The translations under genes and the position numbers were made by a program. This document shows, piece by piece, positions 2,699-15,587 of a stretch of 19,987 nt of DNA. The DNA comes from an uncultured Nitrososphaera sp. (GTDB lineage: Archaea; Thermoproteota; Nitrososphaeria; Nitrososphaerales; Nitrososphaeraceae), in assembly GCA_946480575.1 (NCBI GenBank), contig CAMLKF010000030.1, positions 1 to 19,987 of the forward strand. The letters run 5' to 3'. Numbering within the stretch: position 1 is the first letter of the stretch; every line of letters begins with the position of its first letter. A model generated the notes under the pieces. That model was not told the DNA's origin. It saw only the letters and a program-made list of their open reading frames with translations, and did not search any database.

Positions 2699-3556
2699 CT
2701 AGACAGAAACCGCTGTGCTGCGGCACATAGTTGCCTCTTCTAATCCCTTGAGAAATTCAAGGCCGCCTTTTGTGTAATCTTCATAATTTCTGTCAGTCAA
2801 GCTGGGCTCAAAGCTGACATAGCCGTCATAGCCGATCTTTTGGAGGCTCTTTACAATTGAATGAAAGTCAATGTGCGCAAACCCCGGCATCTTTCGGTTG
2901 TTATCGGCAAAATGGGTATGTGCAAGGAAATTGTGGCAGGAGAGTATCGCGCCTTCAAAAGAGTCCTCTTCGATGTTCATGTGAAATGTGTCTAGCAAAA
3001 TCCCAAGGTCGTCTATTTTGTGTGCGATGGCAAGGGCATCTTGCGCTGTAGCGCAGTACGGCGTGCTGTACCGATTTAGAGGCTCTAGTACGAGCTCAAC
3101 GCCATTGTCTGTCGCTTCCCTGCAAAGCCTTCTCAACAGTGGCAGCGCTTTTCTTGTCATGCGATCTTTATCTTCAAGCTTGATTGTTCCATGGTTCCTG
3201 TCAAACTCTTGCAGGTCGTCTGAAAAGAGGCAGATATTCATTACGTTGCCGCCAAGCTGGTTGCACATCCTGATGCAATCTCGAACATACTTTTCAGACG
3301 CCGCTGCCAGGCTCGCGTCTGTGCTCAGGAGCTTGCGCTTCCACCCATGCTTGCTTACTTGCCCCCACATGCCTGTTATGCCGCAGACTGCAAGCCGGTT
3401 TGTACTCAGCGCGTCCTTTACTTTTTTGATATCTACCTCCTCCGGCTCGCCATACATCTCGACGGCACTGTAGCCCTGATCCGACAGCCTTGCCAGTGTG
3501 TCCTCAAGTGGCTCCACCTTCCTAAATGACACAAGAGTGATCGAATACTTGAACAT
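2699..3556 (-). CDS. D-tagatose/D-psicose 3-epimerase-like TIM-barrel protein
   Basis: This member of the xylose-isomerase-like AP-endonuclease-2 family has about 285 residues from the ATG at 3556. A TTG at 3562 would add two residues. The metal site is complete and of the ketohexose-3-epimerase type: Glu in LVLEPLNRYST, Asp and His in LLDTFHMNIEE, His in HTHFADNNR and Glu in VSFEPSL. The LLDTFHMNIEE string is characteristic of D-tagatose/D-psicose 3-epimerases, so epimerisation of a ketose or ketose-like polyol is the best guess. The true substrate is unknown. It is the last gene of the ebo-like operon, starting 9 nt after the phosphodiesterase stop. Canonical ebo clusters have one protein of this superfamily; this operon has two. 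Confidence 0.85.
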   Translation of the reverse strand: MFKYSITLVSFRKVEPLEDTLARLSDQGYSAVEMYGEPEEVDIKKVKDALSTNRLAVCGITGMWGQVSKHGWKRKLLSTDASLAAASEKYVRDCIRMCNQLGGNVMNICLFSDDLQEFDRNHGTIKLEDKDRMTRKALPLLRRLCREATDNGVELVLEPLNRYSTPYCATAQDALAIAHKIDDLGILLDTFHMNIEEDSFEGAILSCHNFLAHTHFADNNRKMPGFAHIDFHSIVKSLQKIGYDGYVSFEPSLTDRNYEDYTKGGLEFLKGLEEATMCRSTAVSV

Positions 3557-3565
3557 GCCCAACTG

Positions 3566-4939
3566 TCACACACCAGCTCCACTACTTGCAAAGCACTTTA
3601 TGACATCAACGCATTTTGCGACGCCTCCGGGTTTTGCAATGCCATGCTTTTTGCTTGAAGCGTAAAATGCATAACCTTCTCCTGTTTCAATGTCCGGCGG
3701 CCTTCCATGCGAGCCTCTCACCAAGGATGCGTCAAGAGGTATCGACCTTGTCTTTGGGTCAAAAAACAGCTCTACAGGGTCATAGCCAGGCTTTCTGTGT
3801 ATGTCCACCTTGCGGGCAAAGCTGGGCGCCATGCTTTCGTCATGCCACCAGTAGTAGCTGAACCATTTGTCTCTGTCGGCTATGGCGACGAGCTCGCCGC
3901 TGCGCTCATGATCTATCCCAAGCCTTTTCTTTCCCTCGGCATCAAGCACTTTGTCTACTCCAGCTGTTGCTTCGAGCACTTTTCTCGCTTCCCTTTCAAA
4001 GCCGCTCTTGGCAAAAACATGCGCCACCTGGTGGTCAACCATTGCAAACGCCTTGCTAAACTCGTAATCCAGGTACTCTTTGCCATGTATTGTCCGAACC
4101 TCTAGGAGGCCGGCGTCTCTAAGCACAAGGTTCAGCGGTATGGCGACGCTCACGTCATTGAACCCATATTCAGACATGATGACAAACTGCGTTTCGTCCA
4201 TGATTCCAAGCTCTGACGTTTTCTCGACAAGCCTCCCTACTATCTCGTCAGCCTTTTTCAAATCGTCTCTGGCCTGAGCGCTTGCCTTGCCAGCTCTCTG
4301 GAGAGAATAATCAGTATGAGGGATATATGCAAAAAGGTAGTTTGGCCGCTGCTTTTCGAGCGTATATTCGGCGGCGTTTGCTATCCACTCGCTTGACTTC
4401 GGCGACGCAAGCGGCCCCCAATAGCTTGCAAGGTCAAACTCGCCGAATTTTTCTTTCAGCTCTTCATAGTATCCTACTGGCTTGGAGTAGCACCACATCA
4501 CCATTCGTTCGTCAAGGTGTATTGGTCGTGGAGTGACAACGATGTCAGAGTTGGCGTACATCGTGTTTTGCCAAAAGAGTACAGCTGACTTGCTGCTGCT
4601 GCCGCCATTCTGCTGCTGCTGCTGCTGCCTAGTGTTGTTGTTGTTTTTGTCCCATATTCTTTCTGTCCTGACAAGCGAGCTTGGCTGCTCCCAGAAAGAT
4701 ACCGTATATGTGCTCCTGTCGTAAAGCCCGTTTGCCACTATCCCATGCTCGCTTGGGTACTTGCCAGACAGTATGCTGGCCTGGACCGTGCAGGTGACAG
4801 CAGGGAATACCGGCTCGAGCCTTGCCGACTCGCCCGTTTCGGCAATTTTTTCGATGTTTGGAAGAAGGCCGGAACCTAGATGCTCATGTTCGAGGCCGAC
4901 GACATCAAGCACAATCGAGTATTTCGGGGCTGCTACCAT
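3566..4939 (-). CDS. eboF: type I phosphodiesterase/nucleotide pyrophosphatase family protein, EboF-like
   Basis: The 457-residue protein belongs to the alkaline-phosphatase superfamily (NPP branch). The nucleophile region is clear: FPAVTCT with Thr49, then SGKYPSEHGI. Two-metal ligands are seen at the N-terminus (VLDVVG), in HTDYS, SEYGF and DHQVAH, and in GSHGRPP near residue 430. It should hydrolyse a phosphomonoester or phosphodiester. Residues about 99-117 form a poly-Asn/poly-Gln/Ser insert coded by CTG/TTG repeats on the plus strand, a surface-loop expansion. No signal peptide is seen, so it is probably cytosolic. It sits between the UbiA prenyltransferase and the epimerase, as EboF lies in the ebo cluster. 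A generic phosphonoacetate-hydrolase-like role is the alternative. Confidence 0.85.
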   Translation of the reverse strand: MVAAPKYSIVLDVVGLEHEHLGSGLLPNIEKIAETGESARLEPVFPAVTCTVQASILSGKYPSEHGIVANGLYDRSTYTVSFWEQPSSLVRTERIWDKNNNNTRQQQQQQNGGSSSKSAVLFWQNTMYANSDIVVTPRPIHLDERMVMWCYSKPVGYYEELKEKFGEFDLASYWGPLASPKSSEWIANAAEYTLEKQRPNYLFAYIPHTDYSLQRAGKASAQARDDLKKADEIVGRLVEKTSELGIMDETQFVIMSEYGFNDVSVAIPLNLVLRDAGLLEVRTIHGKEYLDYEFSKAFAMVDHQVAHVFAKSGFEREARKVLEATAGVDKVLDAEGKKRLGIDHERSGELVAIADRDKWFSYYWWHDESMAPSFARKVDIHRKPGYDPVELFFDPKTRSIPLDASLVRGSHGRPPDIETGEGYAFYASSKKHGIAKPGGVAKCVDVIKCFASSGAGV

Positions 4940-5007
4940 TCTTTGCTCCTATCTCTCTCTGTTCTGCCCGTTCATATTGCTTAAATGAGTTATAGAATCT
5001 AACATCA

Positions 5008-5949
5008 TCAGGTCACATACAGCTTTTTTGCCAGCAGTATTGCAGGCGCAATGAGAACCAGAGTTGCCATCCCATACGGAAAGCCAGCCATCCCGCTGAC
5101 AAATACAGAATCCAGTATTATTATCGAGATAACCATGTTTTTGATGGCCTGCTGTACAGGGTTTGAGTCTGGCGATGATTCAGTTATTATTAGTCGTTTA
5201 TAGGTAGCAACAATGACGGCGGCAAATATCATCAGGTTGATCAGAAATACCCACTGCAGCTGCAGCAGGAAAATCCCTGCCAAGGCTATCGATGCAATCA
5301 TTGCAAAGATGATTGAAAATGCTGCAGAAGTGTTTGGTTTTTCATTGCCAACCTCTTTTTTACTTAATATCATTATTGCAATGATGTATACAAAGAGCGA
5401 CGTAGCAGCAAATATTGCTGCTGCCCATATCCCAGGTACAGGCACTGCCCTTCCGCCGGATGCAACTGCGGCAGATAGCGCAGGGCTTGCTCCCAGAATT
5501 ACGTTAAGAAACCTCGTGGAGCCCATCGCAAATGGGCCGGCAGGACTTCGCTTGAGCCGATAATCGTATGCAATTATGGCCGCGGTGAGCGCTGCAGATA
5601 CAGCCAAGCTTGCAGGGCTTACAGCCAGCGCAATGGCGTTGGCAGCAGCCAACGCTATGAGAGCTATGGACATGGCGCGCTCTTTTGAGATGCTGCCAGA
5701 GGCAAGCGGGCGGGATGGGCGCTCTCGCCTATCTACCTCCACGTCAAAGTAGTCATTCAGCACGATGCCGGCAATGTAAAGCAGCCCTGAAGAGACCATC
5801 AGGGCGGCAAGATGAAAGCCGTTTGCTTCAGCAGGCGGAGTTGTTGCGAGATATCCTACCAGTATGTTGGAAGGCGTCGTGAATACGTTCGGGAGCCTTA
5901 CCAGCAGCAGGTACTGTCTCAGCTTGCCGATTCTTCCATGATTCTGCAA
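5008..5949 (-). CDS. eboC: UbiA-family prenyltransferase, EboC-like
   Basis: The integral membrane enzyme has 313 residues and about eight or nine hydrophobic helices. The first Asp-rich motif is NDYFDVEVD (residues 65-73), followed by RRERPSRPL, which binds the prenyl diphosphate through Mg2+. The second motif is AYDYRLKR near residue 135-145. The family transfers a prenyl chain to an acceptor at the membrane; acceptors range from aromatic acids to glycerol phosphate. Here the neighbours suggest a sugar- or cyclitol-like acceptor, which is inference. Archaea carry other UbiA enzymes for lipid synthesis (DGGGP synthase); the operon context argues against this being that one. Its start overlaps the end of eboE by 31 nt, indicating translational coupling. 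Confidence 0.88.
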   Translation of the reverse strand: MQNHGRIGKLRQYLLLVRLPNVFTTPSNILVGYLATTPPAEANGFHLAALMVSSGLLYIAGIVLNDYFDVEVDRRERPSRPLASGSISKERAMSIALIALAAANAIALAVSPASLAVSAALTAAIIAYDYRLKRSPAGPFAMGSTRFLNVILGASPALSAAVASGGRAVPVPGIWAAAIFAATSLFVYIIAIMILSKKEVGNEKPNTSAAFSIIFAMIASIALAGIFLLQLQWVFLINLMIFAAVIVATYKRLIITESSPDSNPVQQAIKNMVISIIILDSVFVSGMAGFPYGMATLVLIAPAILLAKKLYVT

Positions 5950-6779
5950 AGGTAGTGGTACGCCTCTTTAGCTGCCGGCACTGGGCAGTCCTGGTACGGG
6001 TAAAGCTCGACTGTGACAAATCCGTCGTAGCCGATGTCGTCCATTGCGGCAAAAACAGGGCGGAAGTCAATTTCGCCCCTGCCAGGTATCAGGTGGTTGT
6101 GCACCCTGTTTTCTATGTCAGCCAGATGGAAATGCTCGATGTAGTCTGCGAGCTCGTAGACCAGCTTTGCAGGATCCTCGTTTACGCAGTAAAAGTGGCC
6201 GATGTCAAAGTTCAGCCCGATATAGTCAGAGTTGACATTCTTGATGAGCCGCTTGAACTGGCTTGAATTTTCGATAAGCAGCCCCGGCTCTGGCTCGACT
6301 AGCACCATGACGCCCTCTCTTTCTGCAACCTCTGCGGCTTTTTTCAAGCCGTCCAAGAATACCTTTTCAAGCTGCCTTGTATTGGCAGAAGACGACGAGG
6401 ACGCTGGCATAGGCCCTCCGGGCTCTGTTGAAAGATTCCTCGCCCCGATTTTTCTTGCAAGCCTGATGCAGTCAATAGTATGCTGTATACGCGTCTGCCT
6501 TGATTGTTTGTCATTTTCTATCCATGAAGGATGGTAAACGTCGCCGACAGCATAAAGCGTGAACGCGTTGAGGTTGGAGATCTGCACCCCGCACGACGAA
6601 ATGGCATCTTTGAGCGACTGAACCTTTCCGTCTTCTACAAAATCAGCAGCAGGGTATGCGTGCGGCGTGTCGCAGAGGATCTCTACCCCGCGATAGCCTA
6701 TCTTTGCTATTTCTTTTATAGAGTCCTGCAGCGAATACCTCTTGAAGGCATTGGTGCTAAACGCGATTTTTATAGCCAT
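5919..6779 (-). CDS. eboE: sugar phosphate isomerase/epimerase-like TIM-barrel protein, EboE-like
   Basis: This xylose-isomerase-like TIM barrel has about 286 residues from the ATG at 6779 (MAIKIAFSTNAF). A start at 6806 would add nine residues and overlap eboB, so the internal ATG 14 nt after the eboB stop is preferred. Likely metal ligands are Glu in VLVEPEPG, Asp and His in FDIGHF, His in HFHLADIE and Glu in VTVELYPY. The C-terminal HNHLIPGRGEIDF segment is typical of EboE and related bacterial proteins. Substrate unknown. It differs strongly from the paralogue at 2699-3556, so the two are not a recent duplication. A Ser-rich insert (ASSSSSA) near residue 135 is another small low-complexity expansion. 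Confidence 0.85.
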   Translation of the reverse strand: MAIKIAFSTNAFKRYSLQDSIKEIAKIGYRGVEILCDTPHAYPAADFVEDGKVQSLKDAISSCGVQISNLNAFTLYAVGDVYHPSWIENDKQSRQTRIQHTIDCIRLARKIGARNLSTEPGGPMPASSSSSANTRQLEKVFLDGLKKAAEVAEREGVMVLVEPEPGLLIENSSQFKRLIKNVNSDYIGLNFDIGHFYCVNEDPAKLVYELADYIEHFHLADIENRVHNHLIPGRGEIDFRPVFAAMDDIGYDGFVTVELYPYQDCPVPAAKEAYHYLCRIMEESAS

Positions 6780-6793
6780 GCTGCTTCTTGTCG

Positions 6794-7609
6794 TCAAGGC
6801 TTCCATGTGAAGTGGGGCGACTGCTTGAAGTATTCGTAAGCGTTATAGAATGTCACGCGCTCGATTTCGTTGGTGCTAAAGCCAGCCCTTCTCATCTCCC
6901 TTGCAGTGAGCGCAACGCTCAGCGGATCCGATACCCCCCAGTCTGCTGCGCTGTGTATCATTATCTTCTCAGTGCCGTATTTCCTGATGATGTTGATTGC
7001 GCGCTCGGGCGACAGTTTGGTGATGGGGTACACAGAAAGGCCGGCCCACATCCCCAGCTCGAGTGTTTTTTCTATTGTCTCTTCGACGTTATGGTCAACC
7101 AGTATCTTGTGTCTTTTGTACCGCCTCCTGCCGGTTTCGCTGTTTACGATGCGCTCTATCCCTTTCATGCCTTCCGGCTTGTTGTTGTGAGGCAGGTGCA
7201 CTGTCATCAGCATGTCCTTATCTGCCGCAATATCCATCTGTTTTACAAACACCTCTTCTTCTAGATCGTTTATCAGGTTATAGCCGAGCTCGCCTACCGC
7301 CACCACCCTTTCTCTGTCAAGGTATTTCTTCATGGCCTCGACTGCGTCAAGGGCAAGTGGCCGCTCCATAGCTTCCTTTGGGTTGACAGAGATGCAGACA
7401 AAGTGCTCTATCCCAAAATCCTTGGCCCTCTTGGTCTCAAAAGTTATCATGTGCTCCCAATAGTCCTCAAATGTGCCCACCGACGTCCTCGGGCTGCCAA
7501 GCCAGAACGACGGCTGGATTATTACCTCTATCCCGGCCTTGGACATGGCGTCATAGTCATCCGTGGTACGGGAATACATGTGTATATGAGGCTCAAACAA
7601 CCTAGTCAT
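6794..7609 (-). CDS. eboB: TatD-like metal-dependent hydrolase, EboB-like
   Basis: This amidohydrolase-superfamily protein has 271 residues from the ATG at 7609. A longer frame to 7672 exists, but the conserved domain begins exactly at MTRLFEPHIHMYSRT, and a TATA element lies 28 nt before that ATG. Ligands are His8 and His10 in the HxH motif, Glu in VGELGYN, His in VHLPHN and DHN, and Asp in SAADWG. The PHIHMYSRTTDDY start is the EboB type rather than that of classical TatD DNase; a separate classical TatD gene lies at 15617-16372. It is the first gene of the operon and divergent from the dehydrogenase at 7720. The reaction is not known for this branch. Confidence 0.87.
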   Translation of the reverse strand: MTRLFEPHIHMYSRTTDDYDAMSKAGIEVIIQPSFWLGSPRTSVGTFEDYWEHMITFETKRAKDFGIEHFVCISVNPKEAMERPLALDAVEAMKKYLDRERVVAVGELGYNLINDLEEEVFVKQMDIAADKDMLMTVHLPHNNKPEGMKGIERIVNSETGRRRYKRHKILVDHNVEETIEKTLELGMWAGLSVYPITKLSPERAINIIRKYGTEKIMIHSAADWGVSDPLSVALTAREMRRAGFSTNEIERVTFYNAYEYFKQSPHFTWKP

Positions 7610-7631
7610 TATGGTGTTATACTGCTGCAAA

Positions 7632-7642
7632 CCCTTTTTAGA
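7632..7642 (-). promoter_or_regulatory. TATA element of the ebo-like operon
   Basis: On the minus strand the sequence is TCTAAAAAGGG, centred 28 nt before the ATG at 7609. This fits a leaderless message and supports the shorter eboB start. The 110-bp gap (7610-7719) must also hold the promoter of the divergent dehydrogenase, for which I see no clear TATA. Confidence 0.5.
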
Positions 7643-7719
7643 TTTGCGGACAAACTTACAGTAGTAGTACATCCAAATTGGGTATCAACCAGCGCCATGG
7701 CGATCTGCCGGTAAAGAAC

Positions 7720-11265: not shown

Positions 11266-13392
11266 ATGCAGCAGAGGAGAATAAGGGTTGGCATCGACGT
11301 GGGAGGCACGTTCACCAAGGCCGTCGCAATCGACATGCTGCGGGGGAGAATAATTGGCAAAGTCACCGTCCCTACGACCCACTCTTCCATCGAGGGCGTC
11401 TCTACGGGCATAGTTCAGGCGCTGAAGTCGCTGATGCAGAAATACGAGATCCAGAATCCTGAAATCGAGCTGATATCGCATAGCACGACCCAGGCCGTGA
11501 ACGCGCTACTCGAAGGCGACACTGCAAAGGTAGGCATAATAGGGATGGGAGTAGGGCTTGAAAAATCAAACGTGATCAAGCGCACAAATGTCAAGGACGT
11601 CGAGCTGGCACCAAACAAGTACCTGCATACCTGCTACAGGTTCCTGGACACTTCAAAGTACCTTGACGACAGGGAAGTGCAAGAGGCGATAGCGGGGCTC
11701 AAGTCAGAGGGCGCAGAGGTCGTCGTTGTGAGCGAGGCGTACGGGGTCGACGACCCAAGCAACGAGCAGTTCGTGATGCAAAAAGCAGACATACCGGCCA
11801 CAGCAGGCCATGAGCTGACCGGCATTTATGGATTGGAGATAAGGACACTTACAGCCGCTATCAATGCAGGCATTCTGCCCAAGGCAACCGCCACAGCAAG
11901 GTTTGTCGAGTCGGCTGTTCGCAACGAAAGCATTGCCGCGCCAGTGCTCATAATGAAGGGCGACGGCGGCGTCACCGACATGAGCACTTTTCGAAGCAAG
12001 CCCATCATCACAGTCCTGTCCGGGCCGGCGGCAAGCGTTGCAGGCGCGCTCCTGCACCTGCGTGTGATAGATGGCGTGTTCATTGAAGTGGGAGGCACCT
12101 CCACGAACGTCTGCGTCATAAAGGACGGCAGGCCCGAGGTGCGCTACGTCACGATAATGCAGCACCCGACCTGCATCCGCTCGTTAGACGTCAGGGTCGC
12201 CGGCGTAGCAGGTGGGTCGCTCGCGCGCTGGTCTGGAAGAAAGATAACCGACGTCGGCCCGAGGTCTGCTCACATCGCCGGCCTTCCATACTCATGCTTT
12301 GTCTCGTCGGAAGAGCTGGAAGGCGGCCAGATAATCACGTTCCGACCAAAGGACGGCGACCCAATTGACTATATCGCAATCGAGTCGGCTGGCGGCAGGC
12401 GCTTTGCGATAACAAACACATGCGCGGCAAACGCGCTTGGGATGGTGCCTGAAGGCGACTATGCCCGGGCAAACCAAGAATCTGCCAAGATGGCGCTCTC
12501 TATCCTTGCTGAAAGGCTTGGCACGACGATGGAGCAGGCAGCCGCAACGATCCTTGAAATTTCTGCAAGAAAAGTGCTCGACATTGCCGAGCCGATGATA
12601 AAAGAGTACAAGCTAAAGAGGGAGCGCATCATTTTAATTGGGGGCGGCGGAGGTGCGTCGGTGCTGGTGCCGTTCATAGCGCGCAGGCTGCAACTGCAGC
12701 ACAGGATAGCCGAGCATGCAGAGGTGATCTCGTCTATCGGTGTCGCGGCTGCAATGATACACGAAGAAGCAGAAAAGACTGTTACAAACCCTATACCAGA
12801 AGACATCACCGTGCTGGCAGAGCAGGTGAAAAAAAGGACGCTAGACCGCGGCGCGCTGCCGGAATCGATCACTATCCAGTCAGAATTTATCAGCGAGCGG
12901 TCGCTTTTGCGCGTGACTGCCATGGGCAATGTGTCGCTTGACATCGGCACTACGAACGCGCAAGAAATAAACGAGGAGGAGGCTCACGTCCTTGCGTGTG
13001 AGCTGTTTGGCATCAACGAGGGCGTGCAGCGTGTCTTTGACATGAAGAATTACCATATATTTGCGTGTGAGATGAGCAAGAAAAAGCTGTTCCTGAAATC
13101 GAGGAAGCAGCCGGTGCTGGTGCTGGACAAGTACGGCAGAGTCAGGCTCTCCGTGCAGAATGCTGCAATATTTAATGGGTCGCCAGAGGAGGTGGCCGAC
13201 AGGGTCGACTCGTTTCTAAAACAGCACAGAAACGGCGGGAACGAACTTGCACCGCAGGTGCACATACTCGACGGCGTCAAGCTGATGGACTTTTCAAGCC
13301 TTACCGCGCCAGAGCATGTTTCAAAGGCAGTCCGCGACGAATTGAAAAAGGCCGCGACCAGGGAAGTCGCCGCAATAGTAAGGCTTGGCTAG
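11266..13392 (+). CDS. hydantoinase/oxoprolinase family protein (HyuA-like ATPase)
   Basis: The 708-residue protein has an ASKHA-type nucleotide-binding fold with phosphate-1 motif [15 protein letters not shown] (residues about 9-23), phosphate-2 motif [14 protein letters not shown] (about 274-287) and an adenosine motif [14 protein letters not shown] (about 457-470). Family members include N-methylhydantoinase A, 5-oxoprolinase and the acetone carboxylase beta subunit. They couple ATP hydrolysis to opening or carboxylating an amide or ketone. These normally pair with a HyuB-type subunit, and none is encoded next to it. It leads an operon with tsaC and a THUMP gene, which hints at a different or additional role. 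The C-terminal 170 residues do not resemble HyuA as far as I can see. Confidence 0.85.
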
Positions 13393-13399
13393 CAAAAAA

Positions 13400-14008
13400 A
13401 TGCAACTTTTTAGCTGTTCCGATGCAGAGAAATGTGCGTCCATTGTCAAGCGCGGAGGTGTGGTCGTTTTTCCGACTGACACTATCTATGGCATCGGCTG
13501 CGACCCATACAATGATGCCGCAGTCAAGCGGATATTCAGGATAAAGGGACGCGACGAGAAAAAGCCGCTTCCGGTGCTTGCGTACAGCGCGCAGGACGCA
13601 GAAAAGCTCATCGCGCTTGGCAGGACAGGAATGGCGCTTGCCAAGAAATACTGGCCCGGTGCCCTCACCATCGTGGCGCCTATTACGGACAACAGGATAT
13701 CGCCCATCGTCACTGCCGGGAGCATGAACTTGGCAGCAAGAGTCCCAGCCAACAGATGCGTGTTATTATTGCTGAAGCACTGCAAGTATCTTGTCGGAAC
13801 AAGCGCAAACCTGTCAGGACAAAAGTCGTTGAAGAGCGTGAAGGAGGTTCTTGGTTCCGGGCTGGCAGGATTTGACGCGCTTTTGGACGGAGGCGCTGTT
13901 GAAAAGGGGGTCGAGTCCACAATAGTGGATGTGGCAGGCGCAACTCCAAAAGTGGTGAGGGAAGGGGCGATAAAGGCAGAAGAAATCTACAGGTCGCTTG
14001 AAACATGA
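13400..14008 (+). CDS. tsaC: L-threonylcarbamoyladenylate synthase (TsaC/Sua5, YrdC domain)
   Basis: TsaC makes threonylcarbamoyl-AMP from threonine, bicarbonate and ATP, the first step of t6A synthesis at position 37 of ANN-decoding tRNAs. The YrdC signatures are present: GGVVVFPTDTIYGIGCD, IFRIKGRDEKKPLPVL, TSANLSGQ and ESTIVDV. With about 202 residues it is the single-domain TsaC type without the C-terminal Sua5 domain. The ATG at 13400 lies 8 nt after the hyuA-like stop; a TTG at 13385 would overlap that gene and add only five residues. It overlaps the THUMP gene by 4 nt (ATGA). The KEOPS subunit Cgi121, which acts later in the same pathway, lies 0.5 kb away in convergent orientation. Confidence 0.93.
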   Translation: MQLFSCSDAEKCASIVKRGGVVVFPTDTIYGIGCDPYNDAAVKRIFRIKGRDEKKPLPVLAYSAQDAEKLIALGRTGMALAKKYWPGALTIVAPITDNRISPIVTAGSMNLAARVPANRCVLLLLKHCKYLVGTSANLSGQKSLKSVKEVLGSGLAGFDALLDGGAVEKGVESTIVDVAGATPKVVREGAIKAEEIYRSLET

Positions 14009-14529
14009 GCGAGTTCAACCTTATTGTGTCGACCTACAGGTTCAGAGAGGAGGAGGCACAGGATGAGATACATGACCTGCTTGAGGCGTTTGGCGACTCA
14101 GATGCCGAATCCGAGATCACTGACATCAAGGGAATAATCCTCGCGCAGACATCGCTCGATCCTTTTCAGGTTGTCAGCAGGCTGAAGAAGCTCGTATCTT
14201 CAGAGCCGTGGCAGCTGCGCTACATCCTGCGCGTCCTGCCAATAGAGGTCGTTGTGCCCACTGACCTTGACTCCATCAAGGACGCCGCAAAAGAGCTGGC
14301 TTCAAGGATGGAGGAAGGCGACACCTTCAGGATAACTGTGGAAAAGAGGCACAGCTCGCTTGCCTCGATGGAAATAATCAACGCAATAGCAGGACAGATC
14401 GACAGGAAGGTCAACCTTGAAAACCCTAGCTGGGTCATACTCGTACAGATACTTGGCGGCCAGGCTGCTGTGTCCGTTGTAAAGCCCGGCCAAATATTCA
14501 GCTCAGTCGTGGAAAAGCGCATGCAGTAG
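14005..14529 (+). CDS. THUMP-domain RNA-binding protein
   Basis: This 174-residue protein consists mainly of a THUMP domain (about 50-165), recognised from the WQLRYILRVLPIEVVV strand, the TFRITVEKRHSSL segment and the C-terminal PSWVILVQILGGQAAVSVV strand. THUMP domains bind the tRNA acceptor end and help modification enzymes. Stand-alone versions resemble Tan1, the partner of the ac4C tRNA acetyltransferase. No catalytic domain is present. Overlap with tsaC by 4 nt ties it to tRNA modification. The stop is the first of five consecutive TAG triplets. Confidence 0.85.
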   Translation: MSEFNLIVSTYRFREEEAQDEIHDLLEAFGDSDAESEITDIKGIILAQTSLDPFQVVSRLKKLVSSEPWQLRYILRVLPIEVVVPTDLDSIKDAAKELASRMEEGDTFRITVEKRHSSLASMEIINAIAGQIDRKVNLENPSWVILVQILGGQAAVSVVKPGQIFSSVVEKRMQ

Positions 14530-14550: not shown

Positions 14551-15345
14551 TTACTTTACTAAGATGGCTGCCCTTTCCAGAAGGTACTGAAGGAATTGAC
14601 TCTCGCTGAACCTGTCATCATCATCATCATCATCAGTAGTTATGCTGAGCAACTCGGACAGCCGCGCTCTTTTCTGTTTTGTTGGATGCAGTAAAGAGTC
14701 GTCCAGCTCGAAATTTTTCATAGCGTAATCTTCAAATCTGCGCACAGCCGTGCCGTCTTGGGAAAACGCGATCAAGCATCCGGATGCGTCTTTTTTCAGG
14801 CCGGCCCTCCTGATTGCCTCCGAGATCTGGTCGGTGCAGGCAAGCCTCAGCAAAAGCTCTGCCTCCCGCCTGTTCGCAAGCATGATCCCTCTCTTTTCTG
14901 CCTCGAGCGTTATCTGCAGCACCCCAAGCACATGATCGGTGCCATAGACAGCATCGGCGTTTGCAGCCTGTATTGAAACGCCCCTGTTGTCGCTGCGCAG
15001 CCTGTCAACGAGCTCGCCTGCATCCGCTGCGACCTTGCGAACTCCAATTATCAAAACTTGGTTGCCGTCAAGAGCTGTTGTTATTATCGTGCCGCCGTGA
15101 ACCACCGTGACGATGGTAACAGTATCACCGTCCCTTGCGACGGTGCTTTCCCCCTGCAGCGCTGCAGAATCTACGCCATTTACCGCGATTATCAAGTTGT
15201 TTGGCTGCAAGAGCCTGGGCTCAGCTGAAATATTTTGTAAAAACTTCAAAATTTCAAGGACGGACGCCTGGTGCCTGTCAAAATTGACAGCTGACGTGCT
15301 GCCGACTGCCTTTCTTGCTCCCCCAAGCAGCCGTATTGTTATCAT
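14551..15345 (-). CDS. cgi121: MoaD/ThiS ubiquitin-like domain fused to KEOPS subunit Cgi121
   Basis: Two domains are visible in 264 residues. Residues 1-85 have the MoaD/ThiS beta-grasp pattern: MITIRLLGGARKAVG at the start, IIAVNGVDS, DGDTVTIVTVVHGG at the end, closing with Gly84-Gly85, which in free proteins is the activated C-terminus. Residues about 95-225 match Cgi121: VSIQAANADAVYG, then an A..A...R..MLANRREAELLLRLA segment and TDQISEAIRRAGLK. Cgi121 is the tRNA-binding accessory subunit of KEOPS, which transfers threonylcarbamoyl to A37 of tRNA. The C-terminus has a run of seven Asp coded by ATC repeats. It is last in the tatD-rps17e operon and overlaps rps17e by 4 nt. Domain assignment is from pattern reading only. 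Confidence 0.78.
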   Translation of the reverse strand: MITIRLLGGARKAVGSTSAVNFDRHQASVLEILKFLQNISAEPRLLQPNNLIIAVNGVDSAALQGESTVARDGDTVTIVTVVHGGTIITTALDGNQVLIIGVRKVAADAGELVDRLRSDNRGVSIQAANADAVYGTDHVLGVLQITLEAEKRGIMLANRREAELLLRLACTDQISEAIRRAGLKKDASGCLIAFSQDGTAVRRFEDYAMKNFELDDSLLHPTKQKRARLSELLSITTDDDDDDDRFSESQFLQYLLERAAILVK

Positions 15346-15587
15346 TCCTTTTCTTCTTCTTCTTCTGTCTCTTCTTCTCCGCCGGCGGCAGCAGCCATCG
15401 AAGCCTTTTCCTGCGCCGCCTGCCTGCGCAAGTGTGAGGTGATATAGCCGGCCAGCTCGTTCCTCAGGACCTTGGACCTAACTATGGCCAGATCATTGAG
15501 AGCCTTCTTATTAGCGTCAAATTCAAGCCCGAACCTGTCTGGGTGCTTTTGCAGGAGCTCGGTAGAGATGCGCTTTATCCTGTTCAT
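15342..15587 (-). CDS. rps17e: 30S ribosomal protein eS17
   Basis: The 81-residue protein matches eS17 in ISTELLQKHPDRFGLEFDAN, LNDLAIVRSKVLRNELAGYI and the following basic TSHLRR. It is a small-subunit protein shared by archaea and eukaryotes. The C-terminal extension after residue 62 is Ala-rich, then nearly all Glu (about 70-81), coded by a TTC repeat on the plus strand, and is longer than in most archaeal eS17. The gene sits between tatD and the cgi121 fusion on one transcript. Confidence 0.92.
   Translation of the reverse strand: MNRIKRISTELLQKHPDRFGLEFDANKKALNDLAIVRSKVLRNELAGYITSHLRRQAAQEKASMAAAAGGEEETEEEEEKE

Follow-up and report, generated by a model that had tools for sequence, protein, structure and literature searches.

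A conserved His-Gly-Gly between a ubiquitin-like domain and the KEOPS subunit Cgi121 in Nitrososphaeria points to a probable precursor cut after Gly85

The window, a stretch of 19,987 nucleotides from an uncultured Nitrososphaera sp., carries on its minus strand (positions 14551-15345) a reading frame of 264 amino acids plus a stop codon that joins a ubiquitin-like (Ubl) domain to Cgi121. A plus-strand reading of the same interval is ruled out by stop codons, and a chance reading frame by 387 homologues (E <= 1e-3); each of the best 120, as listed, aligns over the whole query, with 57-97% identity. The N-terminal domain, a ThiS/MoaD/Urm1-type beta-grasp (residues 1-85; 15091-15345), matches Pfam ThiS over residues 4-85 (30.9 bits, cut-off 22.5) and closes with His83-Gly84-Gly85 (HGG; codons at 15091-15099), the ending typical of Urm1. 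It is followed by a variable, probably disordered linker (residues 86-94; 15064-15090) and then by the Cgi121 domain with the stop codon (residues 95-264; 14551-15063), which matches Pfam CGI-121 over residues 108-196 (33.1 bits, cut-off 25) and the NCBIfam Cgi121 equivalog PRK14886 over residues 110-263 (73.7 bits, cut-off 40). Because the NCBIfam Urm1_like cut-off of 70 bits is missed both by the window protein (19.0 bits) and by two relatives (21.0 and 27.7 bits), the Ubl is labelled Urm1/SAMP-like rather than Urm1.

The gene for ribosomal protein eS17 lies directly upstream on the same strand (15342-15587; Pfam Ribosomal_S17e, 52.9 bits), and its end overlaps the start of the fusion by four bases (ATGA). 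A preliminary description of this DNA had placed eS17 upstream on the same transcript; the adjacency is confirmed by the overlap, and the two genes are presumably co-transcribed. On the other side stand two convergent plus-strand neighbours, a predicted THUMP-domain protein (14005-14529; Pfam THUMP, 48.4 bits) and Sua5/YrdC (13385-14008; Pfam Sua5_yciO_yrdC, 174.4 bits). We take THUMP to be a domain of the tRNA-binding type, and Sua5/YrdC is presumably the enzyme making the intermediate that KEOPS uses for t6A. Synthesis of t6A is served by both Sua5 and KEOPS, and the convergent arrangement of Sua5 and the stand-alone THUMP gene (13385-14529) with the Ubl-Cgi121 frame clusters genes of the t6A pathway. 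Elsewhere in the window, positions 383-2087 of the plus strand encode a class III polyhydroxyalkanoate synthase pair, PhaE, which exceeds its Pfam cut-off, and PhaC, whose NCBIfam score of 445.7 bits is likewise above the threshold. Positions 2699-7672 of the minus strand encode two xylose-isomerase-like TIM barrels, a type I phosphodiesterase, a UbiA-type prenyltransferase, whose best NCBIfam match, EboC, is under cut-off, and a TatD-type hydrolase, a set that we take to resemble Ebo clusters.

An AlphaFold2 model of the protein, built from 56 sequences with a mean pLDDT of 81, has a beta-grasp domain up to residue 80 and a Cgi121 fold from residue 95. Between these two folded domains, residues 81-90, including His83-Gly84-Gly85, fall below a pLDDT of 50, so that in the model HGG appears to sit in a disordered and accessible linker. 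Foldseek searches of the PDB return archaeal Cgi121 of KEOPS as the top matches (7kjt, E 5.7e-10; 8unk; also 3enh), and the first domain matches Urm1 of Trypanosoma brucei (2k9x, E 1.5e-4) and MoaD (1fm0, E 8e-4). The preliminary description had read this frame as a Ubl domain whose 85 residues end in HGG, followed by Cgi121, and Pfam, NCBIfam, AlphaFold2 and Foldseek agree with it, the C-terminal domain aligning with Cgi121 by both profile and fold. As a family role, the Cgi121 encoded in the window is predicted to bind Bud32 and tRNA within KEOPS.

The HGG triplet is present in all 121 aligned close relatives (the query and the best 120 listed of the 387 homologues). A class-wide set of 124 distinct loci, with identical rows dropped, comprises 71 fused loci, one fused locus cut by a contig end, 43 split loci, five with the Ubl only and four with Cgi121 only; since apparent splits were taken first among the 30 automatic and 60 fetched loci analysed, and the Ubl matches listed are incomplete, the ratio of fused to split loci is no census. 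Among the 120 loci of this main set that have a Ubl, HGG closes the domain in 72/72 fused and 48/48 separate cases. In the 71 full-length fused proteins the tree sums to approximately 28.7 changes per column, yet H83, G84 and G85 never change and make up three of the seven invariant columns among the 85 of the Ubl. Column entropy is 0 at residues 83-85, averages 1.5 bits over residues 1-82 and reaches 1.8-3.5 bits at residues 86-100. The linker next to HGG varies in both sequence and length among the fused proteins. Its first position, 86, is occupied by Ser, Ala, Thr or Gly in 61 of the 71. Both glycine positions use all four Gly codons in the fused set; the codons thus vary freely, and selection therefore acts on the protein.

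This pattern bears on whether the Ubl could instead be a fixed accessory domain of KEOPS that aids partner or tRNA binding, with the Gly-Gly as a relic or a hinge. A hinge would tolerate other residues, so an HGG unchanged in 71 fused proteins (about 29 changes per column) while the linker varies counts against that explanation, which we consider unlikely. In its favour, database proteins are predicted at full length, and the fusion is retained in most fused lineages. The gene history of relatives, in which the two domains are often encoded separately, weighs against it further.

Separate Ubl genes of the main set stop exactly at Gly-Gly in 27/48 cases and one to nine residues further on in 20/48; pooled with a later check of further genomes, the stop falls at Gly-Gly in 32/54 and within nine residues of it in 21/54. 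In two loci (L007 and L008) Cgi121 lies in another frame and overlaps a Ubl that terminates precisely at HGG. Gaps between the two genes measure 284-469 bases in five loci (L009-L012 and L014) and elsewhere range from -1 base upward. The longer gaps raised the possibility that an intron separates the two coding parts at the split loci; it was set aside, separate genes being the simpler explanation in view of gaps that start at -1 base and of cases in which the genes are unlinked. Sequencing frameshifts are likewise an unlikely cause of the splits, given the 27 Ubl genes that stop exactly at Gly-Gly; such an artefact is possible for L056 and L058, each of which stands alone among fused rows. 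In one further locus (L142, genome G288; frame ending at 1454), an HGG-ended Ubl is fused to a phosphoribosyltransferase and Cgi121 is the next gene, and the partner of the Ubl can therefore change. Five split loci (L061, L065, L138, L143 and L146) form a single five-row clade, and in these the short Ubl tail after HGG begins CL, CI or GCL and so bears a cysteine.

A search from the Cgi121 side was made to avoid bias towards loci favoured by the Ubl model, and it found Cgi121 in 272/300 genomes. The 30 best loci among 57 weak-match genomes, two of which (L136 and L141) repeat L061 and L065, comprise 23 split loci, three fused loci and four in which Cgi121 has no Ubl nearby; HGG ends the Ubl in all 26 of the 30 that have one. 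In the Cgi121 tree the four that lack a Ubl nearby group together as one clade, and in all four of its rows the Ubl lies elsewhere, ends exactly at HGG and shares its locus with eS17, with no Cgi121 there. The Ubl of this clade, being unlinked from Cgi121, therefore works there unjoined, which also speaks against a fixed KEOPS domain. Some further genomes also have the two genes apart, at a distance of 184 kb in G084 and on different contigs in G127 and G013.

The tree of 118 Cgi121 domains, a quick tree with long branches in which the number of changes is approximate, implies seven changes between the fused and the separate state, at least five of them forced by starred branches. One large clade is fused in 61 of its 63 rows, and joining itself may be selected there. 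A profile scan placed eS17 immediately before the Ubl, on its upstream side, in 105 of the 118 loci with enough upstream sequence (62/70 fused, 38/43 split and 5/5 Ubl-only); by these counts the link of the Ubl with eS17 is no looser than its link with Cgi121.

The later check covered ten more genomes, six of them picked because they had no match to a JAMM protease. Three of the loci it yielded are fused; L177 and L180 carry HGG, and L185 lacks it. Six are separate Ubl genes, all with HGG, which forms the very end of five and is followed by two more residues in the sixth. The tenth is an unrelated Ubl. The last (L184, genome G047), another Ubl that ends in GGG and has neither Cgi121 nor eS17 in its locus, was excluded from all counts. 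HGG was thus present in 2/3 fused and 6/6 separate loci of this check, and in 74/75 fused loci and 54/54 separate Ubl genes when pooled with the main set, so that the Gly-Gly holds across nearly all relatives in a comparison of the kind that the preliminary description had proposed. In the exception, L185, the Ubl runs straight into Cgi121 and the Gly-Gly is absent; its ThiS match is over the Pfam cut-off, and its Cgi121 was found by a custom profile and is under the Pfam cut-off. The genome of L185 (G277) measures 0.8 Mb and has no JAMM protease match. As a fused relative without any Gly-Gly, L185 favours the fixed-domain explanation, and it indicates that a fixed fusion can also exist. Cutting may have been lost in this fusion, with the Ubl fixed or decayed, but it is a single case in a small genome.

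Taken together, the natural splits, the unlinked Ubl genes of one clade, the disordered linker of the model and the conservation of HGG favour cleavage. A near-invariant HGG beside a variable linker, at the point where the genes of relatives break, is best explained by a cut after Gly85. The preliminary description had left open whether the protein is cleaved or is a fixed part of KEOPS; the comparison leans towards cleavage, with L185 as a reminder that a fixed fusion is possible. The window protein is thus likely a precursor from which a cut behind Gly85, with a JAMM protease as the probable enzyme, gives a free Urm1/SAMP-like Ubl and Cgi121. This reading appears well supported by comparison among relatives; that the protein is cut, which protease cuts it and what the freed Ubl is used for are inferences.

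In the proposed mechanism, the gene would encode a two-protein precursor consisting of a Urm1/SAMP-type Ubl (residues 1-85) and Cgi121. Cleavage behind Gly85, for which a JAMM/MPN+ metalloprotease of the cell is the most likely enzyme, would release the Ubl, and its mature HGG end would be activated by an E1-like enzyme for sulfur transfer to tRNA, protein conjugation or both. Cgi121, from about residue 86, would be freed for KEOPS. Once released, the domain would in our view act as a Urm1/SAMP-like sulfur carrier, as a modifier or as both. In Ubl proteins the C-terminal Gly-Gly tail is not part of the fold; it is conserved for activation and as a recognition site for other proteins. In two tested systems JAMM enzymes do not strictly depend on it: CsRpn11 still cuts a Gly78Ala variant (PMC6043591), and HvJAMM1 does not need the Gly-Gly on linear fusions (PMC8832034), as far as the available texts of these reports go. 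Since Gly-Gly is not strictly needed for cutting in these systems, its conservation speaks more for activation of the freed end; it might also be kept for use inside the uncut protein.

JAMM-family proteases were found in 281 of 300 genomes of the class, and the eight best JAMM loci all carry the catalytic-type motif HSHP...PS..D. In a first comparison of 114 genomes, which left out six Ubl rows lacking a JAMM-searched genome, a JAMM protease was found in 87/87 genomes whose Ubl would need processing versus 23/27 whose Ubl ends at HGG (Fisher p 0.003). Nineteen genomes were without a JAMM match; ten of these had a Ubl among the matches listed, an incomplete set, and six were added in the later check. 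They include two fused genomes (G203 and G289), one with a two-residue tail (G065) and one whose Ubl ends at HGG (G197). The p value became 0.018 after these four were added and 0.032 with G277 as well, the added genomes having been chosen for lacking JAMM and the genomes, being MAGs, incomplete and related. As evidence for processing, the co-occurrence with JAMM is weak.

By analogy, cleavage could also act as a switch rather than as plain maturation; the Ubl, while attached, would keep Cgi121 away from KEOPS until split off by a JAMM protease. Such a role would fit the wide distribution of JAMM proteases and the reported inhibition of MPT synthase by covalent linkage, described for SAMP1 and HvJAMM1 in Haloferax (PMC4443979), and regulation of KEOPS by SAMPylation has been suggested by Makarova and Koonin (PMC2948915), in the available text of both papers. 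Relatives with separate genes, however, manage without the joined form, which leaves the switch quite improbable.

The wider Ubl inventory was surveyed in 40 hand-picked genomes, mainly with long contigs, to which split and deep lineages were added. An E1-like protein exceeds the cut-off in 39/40 of these genomes, and TIGR00269, which we take to be a tRNA thiolation family, is present in 38/40. In 26 of the 40, including the two without a TIGR00269 match (G058 and G193), only two ThiS-type domains were found, both in long frames: the Cgi121 fusion and a frame with the length of the E1 frame. No free Ubl gene was found in these 26 genomes with the Pfam ThiS model, so any free Ubl must come from a fusion unless it is too divergent for Pfam. 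MoaE is present in 9/40 genomes and absent from 31, including all 26 with both ThiS-type domains in long frames, and a general molybdenum-cofactor (MoaD) role for the Ubl is ruled out by its absence in 31/40.

The second ThiS-type Ubl precedes the E1-like enzyme in one frame in L021-L024, L154-L165 and L167-L175. An internal Gly-Gly is present in 25 of 28 rows (23 genomes), the other three rows being E1 without an in-frame Ubl. These fusions also keep Gly-Gly and therefore form a parallel to the Cgi121 fusion, not a contrast; their Gly-Gly may be processed likewise. A MoaD-MoeB fusion of Thaumarchaeota was reported in a 2024 survey of archaeal fusions, the main text of which, as available, contains neither Cgi121 nor KEOPS (PMC11237513). 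As a doubtful but conceivable extension, every ThiS/MoaD-type Ubl in many archaea of the class would be made only as a cleavable fusion, to Cgi121 or to its own E1, with JAMM proteases as obligatory maturases and each Ubl supplied one-to-one with its partner. If this is true, each Ubl would be born in equal number with a t6A subunit or an activating enzyme, and a shared operon together with a single protease step would couple tRNA thiolation or protein conjugation, t6A synthesis and the supply of ribosomes (eS17). The archaea with both Ubls in fusions are probably ammonia oxidisers. Ammonia-oxidising archaea have a major part in the nitrogen cycle.

The fusion itself is known. The preliminary description could not say whether it had been described, and Makarova and Koonin had already reported it in 2010 for Thaumarchaea, with the S17 gene adjoining in Nitrosopumilus maritimus and some other marine genomes (PMC2948915); it is the same fusion as here. 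The available text of that paper states the fusion as conserved in all then-available Thaumarchaea genomes, which fails for today's genomes of the class, many of which have separate Ubl and Cgi121 genes. It also places Urm1 homologues near S17 in Sulfolobales, and it does not discuss the internal Gly-Gly or processing, whereas the present comparison finds splits at the Gly-Gly. What is new here is the conservation of HGG beside a variable linker and these splits. They turn the fusion of 2010 into a precise prediction of where the cut falls (after Gly85), which class of protease makes it and how the mature Ubl ends (in HGG). A literature search, with most subscription journals outside it, found no work on processing of the Cgi121 fusion or on its internal Gly-Gly, and no experimental study of ubiquitin-like proteins of ammonia-oxidising archaea. 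Experiments on an archaeal Ubl-Cgi121 precursor are not known to us.

A close likeness is to MoaX and MoaD-MoaE, in which a ThiS/MoaD-type Ubl is likewise joined at an internal Gly-Gly to another protein. According to the available texts, MoaX is cut between Gly82 and Ser83 and its function depends on that cut (PMC4326299), and DRJAMM cuts MoaD-MoaE (PMC8832034). Cleavage after Gly-Gly is thus demonstrated for MoaX, and it is predicted for the window protein. The partners also differ: in MoaX and MoaD-MoaE it is MoaE, the working partner of MoaD, and here it is a KEOPS subunit. Cgi121 is not known to need a Ubl. The HGG ending is shared with Urm1 of Sulfolobales, which has a His before its two C-terminal Gly, as do nearly all Urm1 homologues, and is conjugated to 330 identified proteins (PMC12625751, in the text available); that Urm1 is stand-alone, unlike the fused Ubl here.

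Eukaryotic fusions of ubiquitin to ribosomal proteins are precursors of ubiquitin. Should cleavage hold, their logic, in which a tag is first made in one piece with a component of translation, would extend to archaea with a tRNA-modifying partner. In Caldiarchaeum subterraneum, as described in the available text of PMC6043591, Rpn11 cuts a ubiquitin precursor after Gly-Gly, a short linker enables it to cut a fusion to a folded partner, and CsJAMM cuts SAMP precursors, so that archaeal JAMM enzymes process such precursors in vitro. Ubiquitin-ribosomal fusions, the Caldiarchaeum ubiquitin precursor (CsUb-pre) and SAMP precursors therefore have the same arrangement as that proposed here, a Gly-Gly followed by a partner or tail that a protease removes: nine residues in CsUb-pre, and Cgi121 in the window protein.
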